Source: Streptomyces alboflavus (lineage in GTDB: Bacteria; Actinomycetota; Actinomycetes; Streptomycetales; Streptomycetaceae). From it: DNA of 62,737 nt. The position numbers were made by a program, and so were the translations under genes. Position 1 is the stretch's first letter; each line of letters opens with the position of its first letter. The notes below the pieces were generated by a model. It was not told where the DNA came from. It did not search any database and saw only the letters and a list, made by a program, of their open reading frames with translations. Positions 3,499 through 8,613 of this stretch are shown here, piece by piece. The stretch covers positions 1-62,737 of the forward strand of contig NZ_JNXT01000054.1 of assembly GCF_000716675.1 (NCBI RefSeq), given 5' to 3'.

Positions 3499-6400
3499 GT
3501 GGCCAGAACCCTCCTCGGCACGCTCCTGAACCGCGCCCCCGTCCCGTACTCGGGCCGTTCCAACATCAGCATTCCGTGGCGGCAGCCCACCGGCGCTGAG
3601 GCGCAGATGCGCGCGATGGGCACGGTCGGCACGCTGTTCGCCATCGTCAACCGCACATCGAACGCGACCGCCTTGGTCAACTGGCGCTTGTACCGCAAGG
3701 CCCCGTCCGGGCTGCCGGAAGACCGCACCGAGGTCACCCAGCACGCAGCCCTCGACCTATGGAACAAGCCCAACAAGTTCTTCACCCGCCAGGAACTGGT
3801 GGAGTCCGAGCAGCAGCACATCGACCTGACCGGCGAGGGCTGGCTGGTCATCGCCCGCAGCCCCCGCTCCCCGATCCCGCTGGAGCTGTGGCCCGTCCGC
3901 CCGGACCGCATCGCGCCAGTCCCGCATCCGGTGGACTTCATCTCCGGCTACATGTACACGGGACCGGACGGGCAGGAGATCGCGCTGCGGGTCGAGGACG
4001 TCATCCAGATCCGCATGCCCAACCCGCTGGACCCGTACCGCGGTATGGGTCCGGTGCAGTCGGTGCTCACCGAGATCGACGCGGCGCGGTACTCGGCCGA
4101 GTGGAACCGGAACTTCTTCATGAACTCCGCCGAGCCGGGCGGGATCATCGAAGTCCCGCAGGCCCTGGGGGACACCGAATTCAACGAGCTCCGTGAGCGA
4201 TGGAACGAGCAGCACAAGGGCGTCGCGAACGCGCACAGGGTCGCGATCCTGGAGCACGGCAAGTGGGTGGACCGCAAGTACACCCAGCGCGACATGCAGT
4301 TCGCCGAACTCCGGCAGGTGTCCCGCGACGTGATCCGTGAGGCGTTCGGCGCGCCAGCGTTCGTCCTCGGCGATGTCGGGGACGTCAACCGCGCCACCGC
4401 CGAGGCCTCGAAGGTCCTGTTCGCCGAGCAGCTCACCGTGCCACGGCTGGAGCGGTTCAAGCAGGCGCTGAACAACGACCTCCTCCCGCTGTACGGCAAG
4501 GACGCGGCCCGCACCCTGGAGTTCGACTACTGCGACCCGGTACCGCCGGACGCTGCGGCCCGCAACTCCGAGCTGCGAGAGAAGACGTCCGCGTATGCGC
4601 GGCTTGTCAACGCCGACGCGGACCCGCGCCTCGTATCCGAGTACCTCGGCCTGCCGGAGATCGCGGGCGATGCTGACCGGGCTCTGCTGGTGGAGATCGT
4701 GAAGGGCGCCCCGTCGACGGCTCCGTGGATTCTGCCGCTGCTCGGCTTCGACATCCCCGACCGGCCTGTTGTGCCGGCGCCTGGGGCGCCTGCGCCCGCC
4801 GCATCTGCTCGCGTGGACCTGCACCACCACGTGCCGTTCACGCCCGCAGCCCGGCACCTGCCGTCGTACAACACCGTCCTGTCCCGGCCCCGCACGCTGC
4901 CCCGCGCGGCTGCCGCAGACCCGGACCTGGGCTCGCTGCGGGCGCAGTTCGACGAGGCACTCACCGCGCTGCTGGAGGCGTGGGAGCCGGTCGCTGAGGC
5001 GCAGTACACGGAGCTGGAGCGGCAGATCGAGGAAGCCGTCGATGCCGACGACATAAACAAACTGTCTGGTCTGTCAGTAGCGTCTGATGAAGCCGCGCGC
5101 GTGCTGCGGTCGGCGCTCGCCGACATGGCCGAGACCGCGGCCAGGCAGATGGCCGAGGAAGCGGCCGAGCAGGGCGTGAAGGTCCGCCCGCCGAAGCTCG
5201 ACAAGGGCCTGCGGAACGCGTTCGGGTCGGAGCTGGTGGAGATCGCCGCCGCGACCGCCGGTCTCGTCTCCGCAGATGCGGCTGCGGCGGCGGGCCGTGA
5301 GGCGCTGCGCCTGCTCGTGCCCGGCGCGTCCGGAGCGAGCGTGGCGGAGAAGGTCGGCGGGTTCCTGCGCGGGCTGAAGAACTGGTTCCGCCGCGACCAG
5401 CTCGGCGGCGCCCTGCACCGAGCCCAGAACGCCGGGCGCGTGGCCACGCTGCAAGCCGCACCCAAAGCCCGCTATTTCGCGACAGAACGCCTAGATCAGA
5501 ACACCTGTCTTGCCCCCGAGGTTCTAGTGACGACCCGGTCCGGCCTGGTGCCAGCAAAGGACGTCACGCTCGACGACGAGCTGCTGACGCACTCCGGGCG
5601 CTGGGCAAAGCCAGACCGGATCGTTGTCTCAGAGGTCGAGGAGCAGCTGACCAGGATGGTGCTCACTGACGGCCGATCGCTTCGCCTGACGTGGGACCAC
5701 CCGGTCCTCGTCCGGAACGGCAGTGGCTTCGCCTGGCGGAACGCGGGGGATCTCGCCGTGGGCGACCTCGTAGTCGATCAGTCGACGCTTGAACTCGACG
5801 GGGAAGTCAGCGCCGTTGATCTCGGTCTCGGACAGGCGCCAGACGGTGTATCCACGGTCGGCTATGTCGGCGGTCTTGCGGCGGTCGACGCCCGGGCGCA
5901 GCGAGTGCCAGTAGTCTCCGTCGGCCTCGACTACGAGAGAGTCGCCGACGAGGAAGTCCACGACCCAGGGGCCGATCTGGACCTGGGATCGGTGACTGCG
6001 CCCGAGGTGTTCGAGAGTCTCGCGGACCCGGCGTTCGATGCTGGTCTCGGCGTCGCTGGCGCGGTAGCAGCGGACCGAGCAGTACCGCTTGCGGGCGGCG
6101 CCGGAGGGGACGATGCGGAAGTTCGTCCCGCAGTGGCCGCAGGAGATGATGACGGGCGGTCGGCGGCAGGTCTCGGAGCAGTGGCTCCGCTTGTCGGTCT
6201 GGGAGTGCCGGAAGGCGGCACCGCATCGCTTGCACGTGGCGGTGATGCCCCGGGCGTTACTGCAGGCTCGCGAGCAGCGGATGTACCGGTGTGCGGTGCC
6301 GACGGGAACGCTGTACTCCTTGCCGCATTCGGGGCAGACCTTGGTGACCTGCCGCCTCGGGGTCCTGATCTTGGCGAGGAACTCAGGGTCGGCGAACTTG

Positions 6401-8613
6401 CACTTCTTCGAGCAGTAGATGGCGCGATGGCGCGACCTGCTGGTGATCTCGCCCGAGCAAGTCTTGCAAGTCGGCGGCGTGTAGTCCGGACGTCTTCTGC
6501 GCCACGCCGCGCGCATCGAGCAGGGCTTACAGAGCGGTCCGAGCTTGACCGCGTTTCCGCAGTCCGTACACGTTCTGTCCATGATCTAAGCGTACAGGTA
6601 GCGACGGCCCAAATCGCCGCAATTGAGCGGGAGTTGCACGCCGGAGAGGTCTTCGACTTCACCATCCCGGACGACGAAACGTTCTGGGCAGAGGGCGTCC
6701 TGGTCCACAACTGCACGCCGTGTGCGGACATCGACGGCCGCGAGTTCGAGGACCTCGACGCCGTGCGCGCCGTGTACGGGGCGGGCGGCTACCAGGAGTG
6801 CGAGGGCGGGATCCGCTGCCGCGGCACGGTCACAGCGGTCTGGGACACCACGGAGGAGGCCTCGATGGGCCGCACGCGACGCTGCTGGAACACCGCGACA
6901 CCCGAGCAGATCGCCGCCCGCGGCCGCGCCATGCGGCCCGCGCTCCCCGCGCCGGGCGGCGAGGAAACCTGGTACCGCATCACCAACGCCATGGACGAGG
7001 CCAGCGGCAGTCCTGTCGCGTCGGTGCACATCTACGGAGACATCGGATCATGGGGCATCACGGCCGCGGCGTTCGTGGAAGAGCTGAAGACGGTCGACGC
7101 CGCCGAGATCCACCTCTTCGTCAACTCCCCCGGCGGGGACGTCTTCGACGGGCTAGCCATTCACAACGCGCTGCGCTCCCACCGGGCCCGTGTGATGGTG
7201 CAGGTCGACGCGCTCGCGGCGTCGATCGCCTCGGTGATCGCGATGGCCGGGGACCGGATCGTCATGTCCCCGCACTCGCAGATGATGATCCACGACGCGC
7301 AGGGCGTGTCCTGCGGTAGCCCTGAGGAGCTGCGGGAGTACGCCGACTTCCTCGACCGGCAGTCCGACAACATCGCCGCGGTCTACGCCGAGCGCGCGGG
7401 CGGCACGAAGTTGCAGTGGCGCAAGCGGATGCAGGCCGAGACCTGGTACTTCGCCGACGAGGCGGTGGAGGCCGGACTCGCGGACGAGGTCGCCGAGCCG
7501 CAGAGGGTGCCGGACGAGGAAGCGGCGTCGGATGACCGTGCGATCGCCGCCGCGTGGGACCTGAGCGTGTACAACTACGCGCACGCCAGCCGCGAAGAAG
7601 CGCCCGCCCCGCCGCTGGACACGGCCGCGCCGACCCACCACACCGCGACGGTGGACCGGCCCTGGGACTCCGGCCCGAACGAGCGCCGCCTGCCGTCGCC
7701 GATGAGCGTGGCGACGGCGAAGAAGGCGTACGGCTGGTACGACCCCGCCCAGGCCGAGAACGGCGAGCTGCCCAAGGCAGCCTGCAAGTTCCCTCACCAC
7801 GAGGTCGACGGCGACGGCAGCCCCGGTGCCGCGAACCTGGCCGCCTGCCGCAACGCACTCGCCCGCCTACCGCAGTCCGATGTGCCCGAAGCGCAGCGCG
7901 CGGCCGTGGAAGCACACCTGCGCGCGCACCTCACCGACGGCGACAGCAGCGAGGACCACACCCACCACGCGCCCACCGCCGCGGTCGTGTTCGACCCCGA
8001 AGCGTTCCGTCAGGCCGCGGTCGCAGCCCTCGACCCGATGCCCGGCTACCAGCCCGACCACATGCGTTCCCTCATGGCCGGACTCGCAGGCGACGCACCC
8101 GCCACACCCCAGCCGCAACGCGAGGCCCCCGCCTACGTGCCGCCCCCGGCCGACACCGTGCCCGAACCCGACCCCCACGCTGTGGCCGCCGACTACTTCC
8201 GCTCCCACATGGCAGGCGTCGCCGACAACGCGCCCGCCGCACCCGAGCCCGAACGGCCGGCCGCACCATACGTACCGCCGCCTGTCGACACCGTTGCTGA
8301 TGCGGATCCCGAGACCGTTGCGGTGGGCTGGTTCCGCAGCGTGTTCGCCGCCGCAGCGAACGACGCCCCCGCTGTGCCGCAGCCCGAACAGCCCGCACCC
8401 ACAGCTGAGGCCCCGCAGGTGGTGTACGTCCCCGAGCCGCCGCCGCCCGCCGATGAGGTCGCCGTCGACTACATGCGCACCCTCATGGCGAACGCCGCCC
8501 ACGACCTTGCCGCCCCCGAGCAGGCTGCGGCACCCGGCCCGGCGCGCGCCGAGCCGATCCCGGAAATCGACCCGAAGAGTTTCGAACGCAGCCTCAGGGA
8601 GGCACGACTGTGA
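3499..8613 (+). CDS. portal - MuF - ClpP-type prohead protease fusion, interrupted by an intein
   Basis: This gene encodes 1704 residues, about 1302 after intein removal. Residues 1-400 are a phage portal protein, the dodecameric DNA gate. Residues about 480-669 plus 1072-1120 form a MuF-type head-morphogenesis domain with the family motif NT|CTPCADIDG. Residues about 1150-1345 are a ClpP/S14-like prohead protease with nucleophile region ALAASIASVIAMAG and histidine region MMIHDAQG. The end (about 1520-1704) is a four-copy Pro/Ala/acidic repeat. Portal, MuF and protease are usually separate genes. Here one chain would have to be cleaved, plausibly by its own protease. The GTG start at 3499 follows GAAGGGAGGGG. 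The stop overlaps the capsid gene as GTGA. Confidence 0.9.
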   Translation: MARTLLGTLLNRAPVPYSGRSNISIPWRQPTGAEAQMRAMGTVGTLFAIVNRTSNATALVNWRLYRKAPSGLPEDRTEVTQHAALDLWNKPNKFFTRQELVESEQQHIDLTGEGWLVIARSPRSPIPLELWPVRPDRIAPVPHPVDFISGYMYTGPDGQEIALRVEDVIQIRMPNPLDPYRGMGPVQSVLTEIDAARYSAEWNRNFFMNSAEPGGIIEVPQALGDTEFNELRERWNEQHKGVANAHRVAILEHGKWVDRKYTQRDMQFAELRQVSRDVIREAFGAPAFVLGDVGDVNRATAEASKVLFAEQLTVPRLERFKQALNNDLLPLYGKDAARTLEFDYCDPVPPDAAARNSELREKTSAYARLVNADADPRLVSEYLGLPEIAGDADRALLVEIVKGAPSTAPWILPLLGFDIPDRPVVPAPGAPAPAASARVDLHHHVPFTPAARHLPSYNTVLSRPRTLPRAAAADPDLGSLRAQFDEALTALLEAWEPVAEAQYTELERQIEEAVDADDINKLSGLSVASDEAARVLRSALADMAETAARQMAEEAAEQGVKVRPPKLDKGLRNAFGSELVEIAAATAGLVSADAAAAAGREALRLLVPGASGASVAEKVGGFLRGLKNWFRRDQLGGALHRAQNAGRVATLQAAPKARYFATERLDQNTCLAPEVLVTTRSGLVPAKDVTLDDELLTHSGRWAKPDRIVVSEVEEQLTRMVLTDGRSLRLTWDHPVLVRNGSGFAWRNAGDLAVGDLVVDQSTLELDGEVSAVDLGLGQAPDGVSTVGYVGGLAAVDARAQRVPVVSVGLDYERVADEEVHDPGADLDLGSVTAPEVFESLADPAFDAGLGVAGAVAADRAVPLAGGAGGDDAEVRPAVAAGDDDGRSAAGLGAVAPLVGLGVPEGGTASLARGGDAPGVTAGSRAADVPVCGADGNAVLLAAFGADLGDLPPRGPDLGEELRVGELALLRAVDGAMARPAGDLARASLASRRRVVRTSSAPRRAHRAGLTERSELDRVSAVRTRSVHDLSVQVATAQIAAIERELHAGEVFDFTIPDDETFWAEGVLVHNCTPCADIDGREFEDLDAVRAVYGAGGYQECEGGIRCRGTVTAVWDTTEEASMGRTRRCWNTATPEQIAARGRAMRPALPAPGGEETWYRITNAMDEASGSPVASVHIYGDIGSWGITAAAFVEELKTVDAAEIHLFVNSPGGDVFDGLAIHNALRSHRARVMVQVDALAASIASVIAMAGDRIVMSPHSQMMIHDAQGVSCGSPEELREYADFLDRQSDNIAAVYAERAGGTKLQWRKRMQAETWYFADEAVEAGLADEVAEPQRVPDEEAASDDRAIAAAWDLSVYNYAHASREEAPAPPLDTAAPTHHTATVDRPWDSGPNERRLPSPMSVATAKKAYGWYDPAQAENGELPKAACKFPHHEVDGDGSPGAANLAACRNALARLPQSDVPEAQRAAVEAHLRAHLTDGDSSEDHTHHAPTAAVVFDPEAFRQAAVAALDPMPGYQPDHMRSLMAGLAGDAPATPQPQREAPAYVPPPADTVPEPDPHAVAADYFRSHMAGVADNAPAAPEPERPAAPYVPPPVDTVADADPETVAVGWFRSVFAAAANDAPAVPQPEQPAPTAEAPQVVYVPEPPPPADEVAVDYMRTLMANAAHDLAAPEQAAAPGPARAEPIPEIDPKSFERSLREARL
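5506..6711 (+). other. intein in the MuF domain (402 codons, class 1 cis-splicing)
   Basis: The insert runs from Cys670 to Asn1071 of the host protein. Block A is CLAPEVLVTTRSGLVPAKDV. Block B holds the T-x-x-H motif as TWDHPVL (Thr731, His734) followed by GDLAVGDLVV. Block F is VFDFTIPDDETFW, and block G is EGVLVHN followed by Cys+1. All expected splicing residues are present: Cys1, block B Thr/His, penultimate His, terminal Asn and Cys+1. The roughly 250 residues between the splicing halves are low-complexity Ala/Gly/Asp/Arg/Val and show no LAGLIDADG or HNH motif. Removing the insert rejoins the extein as LDQNT-CTPCADIDG, the intact MuF signature. Confidence 0.93.
5629..6582 (-). CDS. antisense-nested zinc-finger VSR-like homing endonuclease inside the intein
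   Basis: The 317-residue product has five paired-cysteine zinc modules: C5/C8/C18/C21, C39/C42/C57/C61, C83/C86/C103/C107, C117/C120/C135/C139 and C148/C151/C168/C172. Modules 2-5 share the pattern CxxCGxxF...CSxxC. A VSR-like/DUF559 nuclease fold follows at residues 180-270: WVVDF (Asp209), EADGDYWH (Glu219, Asp221, His226) and YTVWRLSETEI. By hand count 58 of the first 70 codons end in G or C, as expected for real coding sequence here. The start is fixed because an in-frame TAG lies two codons upstream of the ATG. No Shine-Dalgarno is visible, so a leaderless transcript is possible. Its C-terminal tail is antisense to intein block B. The natural role would be cutting intein-free MuF alleles. 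Confidence 0.85.
   Translation of the reverse strand: MDRTCTDCGNAVKLGPLCKPCSMRAAWRRRRPDYTPPTCKTCSGEITSRSRHRAIYCSKKCKFADPEFLAKIRTPRRQVTKVCPECGKEYSVPVGTAHRYIRCSRACSNARGITATCKRCGAAFRHSQTDKRSHCSETCRRPPVIISCGHCGTNFRIVPSGAARKRYCSVRCYRASDAETSIERRVRETLEHLGRSHRSQVQIGPWVVDFLVGDSLVVEADGDYWHSLRPGVDRRKTADIADRGYTVWRLSETEINGADFPVEFKRRLIDYEVAHGEIPRVPPGEATAVPDEDRVVPRQAKRSAVSEHHPGQLLLDL
8056..8610 (+). repeat. four imperfect 45-47 codon repeats at the end of the portal-protease gene
   Basis: Units begin at 8056, 8191, 8326 and 8467 with the pattern D(Y/H)(F/M)RS.MA..A..APA.P.PE, then YVPPPADTV and an acidic spacer. Units 1 and 2 are each 45 codons, unit 3 is 47, and unit 4 diverges into the protein C-terminus. 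The helix-plus-proline pattern and the position just before the capsid gene suggest a scaffold-like segment, which is inference. Confidence 0.75.

Follow-up and report, generated by a model that had tools for sequence, protein, structure and literature searches.

Background

In conventional bifunctional inteins the nuclease, encoded in frame between splicing blocks B and F, is bound to its host protein, both being made from one transcript, with equal timing and in equal amount. In the fractured genes that Dassa et al. are said to have described in 2009, a Vsr-like nuclease gene lies between the halves of a split intein. Already known are antisense homing genes in group I introns, exemplified by the nuclear intron L2066 of Didymium squamulosum, whose antisense homing endonuclease gene is expressed and whose product cuts at the insertion site (PMC9548176), and a same-strand, out-of-frame HNH gene in a non-splicing insertion, exemplified by the hidden endonuclease of ShiLan, which occupies an alternative frame, leaves the host frame open and is accompanied by no detected splicing domain; in the second case of that report, Pacc40, similar free-standing genes adjoin the host gene in other phages (PMC11855218). 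Here, a 62,737-nucleotide stretch of Streptomyces alboflavus DNA (contig NZ_JNXT01000054.1 of assembly GCF_000716675.1; the window) is analysed, in which an intein inserted in the phage head gene muF bears a Vsr-like nuclease gene on its opposite strand. The element is interpreted, with a probability of about 0.8, as a mobile intein of a phage, with the gene of its likely homing nuclease placed antisense within the coding DNA of the intein itself.

Organization of the intein and its opposite-strand nuclease

The host open reading frame (ORF), located at 3499-8613 on the plus strand, displays matches to Phage_portal, Intein_splicing and a ClpP-type protease, while its MuF part is named from PHROG portal and head matches and from phage homologues annotated as MuF. 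The features of the element, in window coordinates, are as follows.

3499 to 8613, plus strand: host ORF of 1704 residues, comprising portal, MuF, intein and ClpP-type head maturation protease, from profile matches.
5505 to 5506, plus strand: 5' junction of the insertion site, Thr / Cys1, placed by intein-free alleles of the same genus; locus L208 gives the same site for the intein of locus L004.
5506 to 5796, plus strand: N-terminal intein half, residues 1-97, with Cys1 and block B (TWDHPVLV); predicted HINT fold, predicted local distance difference test (pLDDT) mostly about 90.
5797 to 6594, plus strand: sense centre, residues 98-363, open and antisense to the nuclease core; predicted unfolded, pLDDT below 50.
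6595 to 6711, plus strand: C-terminal intein half, residues 364-402, ending in His-Asn, with the extein Cys at 6712-6714; TIGR01443 above cut-off.
6711 to 6712, plus strand: 3' junction, Asn / Cys of the MuF CxxC motif, placed by alignment of intein ends and by intein-free alleles.
5629 to 6582, minus strand: nuclease gene, 317 residues, ATG start, without TTA, CTA or TCA codons, from the ORF and profile matches.
6058 to 6582, minus strand: zinc-finger region, nuclease residues 1-175, with repeated Cys pairs in invariant or nearly invariant columns of alignment A1.
5752 to 6051, minus strand: catalytic domain resembling Vsr and I-Bth0305I, nuclease residues 178-277, from profile and structure matches.
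5629 to 5751, minus strand: C-terminal tail of the nuclease, mostly of low confidence, antisense to intein block B, from alignment and structure model.
6589 to 6594, minus strand: -10-like TACGCT, 6 nucleotides before the nuclease ATG, a predicted and possibly leaderless promoter; TANNNT in all five close relatives.

The intein spans 402 residues (5506-6711), with Cys1 at 5506, the terminal His-Asn at 6706-6711 and the extein Cys at 6712. The Pfam model Intein_splicing (cut-off 35.8 bits) matches it as two halves spanning a gap, scoring 36.3 for the intein alone and 31.8 for the whole ORF, while NCBIfam places intein_Cterm above and intein_Nterm below cut-off (15.5 vs 24.5). The markers of a class 1 intein, namely Cys1, T62 and H65 of the block B Thr-x-x-His motif and the terminal H401 and N402, are invariant in 10 of 10 aligned inteins, and the extein Cys follows the terminal His-Asn in six aligned loci as well as in L205 and L206; block A is likewise recognised at the N-terminus. 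Both halves are predicted by modelling to adopt the HINT fold; the sense centre is of low confidence in the structure model, and the nuclease is not part of the intein polypeptide. An RNA intron was rejected, as no Rfam match at an E-value of 0.1 was found in window positions 5000-7200 and a protein frame with intein motifs is open.

The window nuclease matches DUF559 above cut-off (E-value of 2.5e-7) and I-Bth0305I (PDB code 3r3p) both by profile (E-value of 7e-17) and by Foldseek (E-value of 1.9e-5). Its catalytic domain, with residues conserved in alignment A1, belongs by sequence to the Vsr/EDxHD type and is homologous to I-Bth0305I; structure prediction likewise returns a Vsr-type nuclease fold. 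Structure comparison of model residues 173-280 also matches Toxoplasma mitoribosomal proteins and the RAP module of human FASTKD4. In a preliminary description of the sequence, a class 1 intein had been recognised at 5506-6711, and this assignment is upheld by the splicing motifs, the Pfam match and the predicted fold; the 317-residue zinc-finger/VSR-like nuclease proposed there for the intein centre is likewise recovered, except that its gene extends beyond the centre and runs under block B. A database copy of this protein (P0001) has 295 residues, at least one gene call having chosen the antisense gene.

Recurrence of the layout in eight phages

Homologues of the antisense protein amount to 41 proteins including the window's own copy, and a search of viral contigs with the nuclease revealed 48 loci, both nested in inteins and outside them, of which L001 is identical to the window. 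Opposite-strand intein halves flank the nuclease in L002, L003, L004, L005 and L034. The Intein_splicing match across the gap is above cut-off in L002 and below it in L003, L004, L005 and L034, while L004 and L005 pass the cut-off of another Hint model. A search with the sense intein added nested L205 and L206, giving, with the window, eight phages. All eight inteins occupy one exact site, directly before a Cys of the CxxC motif in MuF. In each of them no stop interrupts the sense frame across the nuclease gene, and the frame of the nuclease itself is also open. The layout, its recurrence and the open sense frames are established at the level of sequence; the intein is continuous and carries the nuclease antisense inside it, as first described, and the same arrangement is present in seven further phages.

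Four metagenomic proteins (P0042-P0045) also read continuously from Cys1 to His-Asn-Cys and were left out of the count, since they are known as proteins only and were found by sense similarity. Some nuclease proteins, also known as proteins only (such as P0002, P0003 and P0005), present tails that mirror intein blocks. A nuclease scan of genome contigs gave six loci, none of which was nested in the intein-half search; one of them, L050, equals L008 in length and match. No further nested contig emerged when the nucleases of L004 and L034 and alignment A2 served as queries, L165-L184, loci re-cut from previously found contigs, being left out, and the sense proteins of L005 and L034 retrieved only their own loci. 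In the phage collection, the window, L005 and L034 nucleases have only distant matches, and no match to the window intein was found. The nuclease occurs in 1 of 199 genomes of the genus, the window's own, and is matched in 23 of 394 genomes of the class, the 22 besides its own being weak and mostly confined to the catalytic part. Two candidate nested loci were rejected: L024, which follows another gene on a cut contig, and L042, which has a different nuclease type, both without detectable intein halves. These two also lack TTA, CTA and TCA and have an open opposite frame, the chance of none being 0.19 and 0.11, respectively.

Codon avoidance keeps the sense frame open

In the register adopted by the two frames, a sense stop arises exactly at TTA, CTA or TCA codons of the nuclease, and the sense strand is stop-free because the nuclease gene contains none of them. 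Based on the codon usage of each contig, 1.8, 2.2, 2.7, 6.7, 1.0, 5.0, 3.7 and 1.5 such codons are expected in the nested nuclease genes; 0 are observed in the eight against 24.5 expected. The probability of an open sense frame is 0.16 for the window, which by itself thus proves nothing, and is low individually in L205 (0.021), L034 (0.0045) and L004 (0.0006), the contigs of the last two having a GC content of about 51%. The control set comprised the 37 relatives that remained of 54 tabulated loci once nested and duplicate loci, pieces that were short or broken, and two in-frame fusions had been set aside. At least one stop-making codon was present in 35 of them, with 385 observed and 317 expected; for ten of these controls the expected number is no higher than 3.2, as it is for most of the nested genes, and together they hold 35 such codons where 21.7 are expected, two of them containing none. 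The nested layout is thus not an accident of high GC content.

Two other lines of argument were dropped. The same antisense register is open over at least 317 codons in 9 of 10 long plus-strand window ORFs taken as genes, so that an open antisense frame alone means little and the evidence rests on homology, codon avoidance and substitution pattern. The register shared by the nested cases was discarded as a sign of common ancestry, since in simulated re-encodings the other two registers were almost never left open and register 0 is the only workable one.

Selection switches strand along the intein

Sense codon position 1 coincides with the wobble position of the nuclease, and substitutions were compared in five close relatives (the window, L002, L003, L205 and L206), L004, L005 and L034 being too divergent. 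For the N-terminal half, the nuclease core and the C-terminal half in turn, substitutions at sense positions 1/2/3 amount to 5/3/19, 101/54/63 and 6/5/19 between the window and L002; the corresponding values for L205 and L206 are 7/8/19, 122/57/76 and 10/8/25. When codons that differ at one position only are considered in both pairs, 27 of 31 changes in the N-terminal half and 26 of 37 in the C-terminal half are sense-synonymous, while in the core 125 of 178 are antisense-synonymous and 38 of 178 sense-synonymous, the latter share being no better than random change. The switch of strand was observed in 10 of 10 pairs of the five relatives. Where the nuclease tail overlaps block B, the pattern is sense-like in nine of the ten pairs, window-L002 being the exception. 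Judged by these substitutions, the intein halves evolve as a sense protein and the centre as an antisense protein, the sense centre being kept open and not conserved as protein beyond the constraint imposed by the nuclease. The earlier proposal that both frames are apparently used is better put more cautiously: both are kept open and may be expressed, but selection at the protein level is seen only in the intein halves and the nuclease. The converse pattern, a conserved sense centre opposite a broken antisense frame, is absent from the five relatives. None of the three observations that the preliminary description had named as speaking against it was made.

Intein and nuclease are present or absent together

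L208 is an intein-free relative of L004 (protein identity of 86% in the best segment). The two share 56-60 of 60 identical positions per 60-bp block from 60 to 600 bp upstream and from 60 to 480 bp downstream of the site, with complete identity (30 of 30) between 30 and 60 bp from it on either side. Of the 30 bp that adjoin the site, 28 are identical upstream and 23 downstream, so that all flanking 30-60-bp blocks but one, located at the site, are at least 93% identical. The two phages are nearly identical elsewhere, their differences being concentrated in the roughly 30 bp next to the intein site. Neither nuclease nor intein was found in 6.2 kb of L208; as L004 has both and L208 neither, the comparison indicates that intein and nuclease were gained or lost as one unit. 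The junction differences are such as a short tract of co-conversion or a change in the target would leave, as expected from homing. In the window's genus, the joined MuF flanks were matched in 14 of 392 genomes, its own included, and the five strongest of the other alleles (L186 and L188-L191; up to 79% protein identity) cross the site without insertion. None of these same-genus loci, of about 3.3 kb each, encodes intein or nuclease except the window's own. These empty alleles, at 79% protein identity or less, are more distant from the window than L208 is from L004.

Related layouts and nuclease phylogeny

In eight further loci (L006, L007, L008, L009, L013, L015, L021 and L031), a muF-like gene without intein is accompanied by an opposite-strand relative of the nuclease, whose end abuts or slightly overlaps the muF end. 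Seven of the eight muF assignments are supported by Pfam Phage_Mu_F or by PHROG head models, L015 being below the Pfam cut-off, and the eighth, L007, by its CxxC tail alone. In L009 the frame of the nuclease appears broken where checked. In a tree of 35 nucleases, without L009 and the later-found L205 and L206, the nested L005 forms a group with L006 and L007, which are convergent (support 99/97), nested and convergent types being interleaved. Well-supported branches impose three changes of the nested label on this tree, which may represent one gain and two losses; L034 forms a long branch of unsure placement. A conventional arrangement is observed in L018 (3846-7463), where a related DUF559 nuclease lies in frame within the intein match. 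L037 (2157-5981) displays an ORF of 1274 residues with two matches to N-terminal intein halves plus a nuclease. The window fuses portal, MuF and a ClpP-type head protease in one ORF, while in L002 (2861-5515) the part after MuF resembles, by eye, another protease type.

A putative promoter at the C-intein border

A TANNNT box ends 6 nucleotides before the nuclease start position in all five close relatives (the window, L002, L003, L205 and L206), to which the comparison was restricted. In the window, TANNNT lies 5-7 nucleotides upstream of only 5 of 1630 minus-strand ATG or GTG codons. Leaderless promoters of actinobacteria show such a -10-near-start layout. An antisense promoter at the C-intein border, belonging to the nuclease itself, is predicted from the sequence. 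In the same segment of the C-terminal half (6583-6603), the sense strand presents the A-ending codons CTA and two GTA, which represent 0.8% of Leu and 7.3% of Val codons, respectively, in ten window ORFs; one GTA helps to form the opposite-strand TANNNT box.

Proposed mechanism and alternative explanations

The sense product would be a single precursor, modelled with its two intein halves folding round about 266 unstructured residues, from which the intein is predicted to splice in cis and restore MuF. The nuclease, made from its own promoter, would cut muF alleles that lack the intein at their CxxC codons, whereupon repair would copy intein and nuclease together into the cut gene; splicing, cleavage and antisense expression are what we infer for this cycle. 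MuF is a late gene, and a nuclease fused to it in frame would thus appear late, whereas an antisense one can be made independently. The layout suggests that, with its own antisense promoter, the nuclease would be timed independently of the late head operon, and that late sense transcription might shut the nuclease off. We tend to favour the broader proposal that these elements form a distinct class of mobile inteins, in which a homing nuclease with its own promoter on the opposite strand lets a late head gene carry a separately timed nuclease, the price being a ban on TTA, CTA and TCA that keeps the sense frame translatable, and in which the layout arose or switched repeatedly from nucleases convergent with muF.

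Several observations weigh against the homing-intein interpretation. The lack of insertion in L208 could reflect precise loss and not the target state, and L205 and L206 were found using the sense protein as query. Sense openness is unsurprising singly in five of the eight nested phages (P of 0.057-0.35), and since five of the eight are close relatives the pooled figure of 0 against 24.5 overstates independence. For a mobile gene, the codon usage of the contig is a less than perfect null model. Of the 37 non-nested relatives, 11 are also below expectation (L021 has 2 against 7.3). The promoter scan found no conventional sigma-70 two-box match. The aligned nuclease start is ATT in L205, where an ATG follows two codons later, and ATC in L206 (4157-5125), where the first ATG, GTG or TTG lies 46 codons into the open frame, so that this nuclease would use a rare start codon or be shortened.

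Three other explanations were considered. The nuclease could be a free-standing selfish gene for which the intein, not moved by it, is a mere neutral landing place; relatives convergent with muF in eight intein-free phages demonstrate that the nuclease can live without an intein, and the interleaving of the two types on the tree points the same way. This is nevertheless unlikely, as the eight nested cases share one exact intein site and neither component is present in L208 or in the five strongest intein-free alleles of the genus, inspected over about 3.3 kb each. It is also possible that base composition alone keeps the sense frame open, the intein being split in effect or dead with an ordinary nuclease gene between its halves. 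The openness of register-0 antisense frames in 9 of 10 window ORFs and the P of 0.16 for the window alone are in line with such a view, which is rendered quite unlikely by the complete lack of the 24.5 expected stop-making codons across eight cases, two on contigs of about 51% GC, by sense selection on halves that keep Cys1, the block B His and His-Asn-Cys, and by the presence of stop-making codons in 35 of 37 other relatives.

A very unlikely explanation is that the nuclease serves another purpose, such as the exclusion of competing phages, with a regulatory intein and homing secondary or lost. Phage nucleases can exclude competitors, and a late head gene is an unusual location for a homing nuclease of the conventional kind; however, conserved catalytic residues, together with a presence/absence polymorphism accompanied by differences at the site, fit homing without extra assumptions. 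A mobile intein with an antisense homing nuclease thus remains the preferred interpretation.

Comparison with known systems

Among titles and abstract beginnings, no description of an antisense endonuclease gene in an intein was found, Dassa et al. 2009 and the preprint 10.1101/2025.01.02.630785 lying outside this coverage. The word "antisense" was not found in the intein survey PMC5050341 or in PMC3229294, and in PMC2988022 it concerns free-standing genes. Priority is uncertain, as that preprint, "Actinobacteriophage Inteins ... Non-Canonical Architecture", may by its title cover something similar and Dassa et al. 2009 is also uncovered. Annotation that keeps one of two fully overlapping genes hides either intein or nuclease, which may explain why such elements went unnoticed. 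The locus offers a natural case of about 270 codons readable on both strands through a simple codon rule, and, because a single nuclease family exists side by side in forms convergent with muF and in forms nested in inteins, a testable intermediate in the joining of splicing elements with free-standing nucleases.

The catalytic domain, on which the comparison was made, resembles in fold and sequence that of the EDxHD homing endonuclease I-Bth0305I (PMC3943268); the PDB title of 3r3p refers to a mobile intron protein. As in the group I intron of PMC9548176, the nuclease lies on the opposite strand of a self-splicing element; an RNA intron, however, has no reading frame to keep, whereas here the sense strand must stay coding. 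The ShiLan-type insertion (PMC11855218) also combines an alternative-frame nuclease with an open host frame, but that nuclease is a same-strand HNH enzyme, in contrast with the antisense, Vsr-type nuclease observed here inside an intein. Fractured genes reportedly share the nuclease superfamily and its place between intein halves, but the present inteins are unsplit, with a continuous sense frame through the nuclease gene in eight of eight phages. Conventional bifunctional inteins display the same insertion logic, with nuclease DNA between the N- and C-terminal splicing halves, and differ in that the nuclease described here is antisense and outside the intein polypeptide. If this interpretation is true, the choice of strand would break the link between nuclease and host protein that conventional inteins impose.
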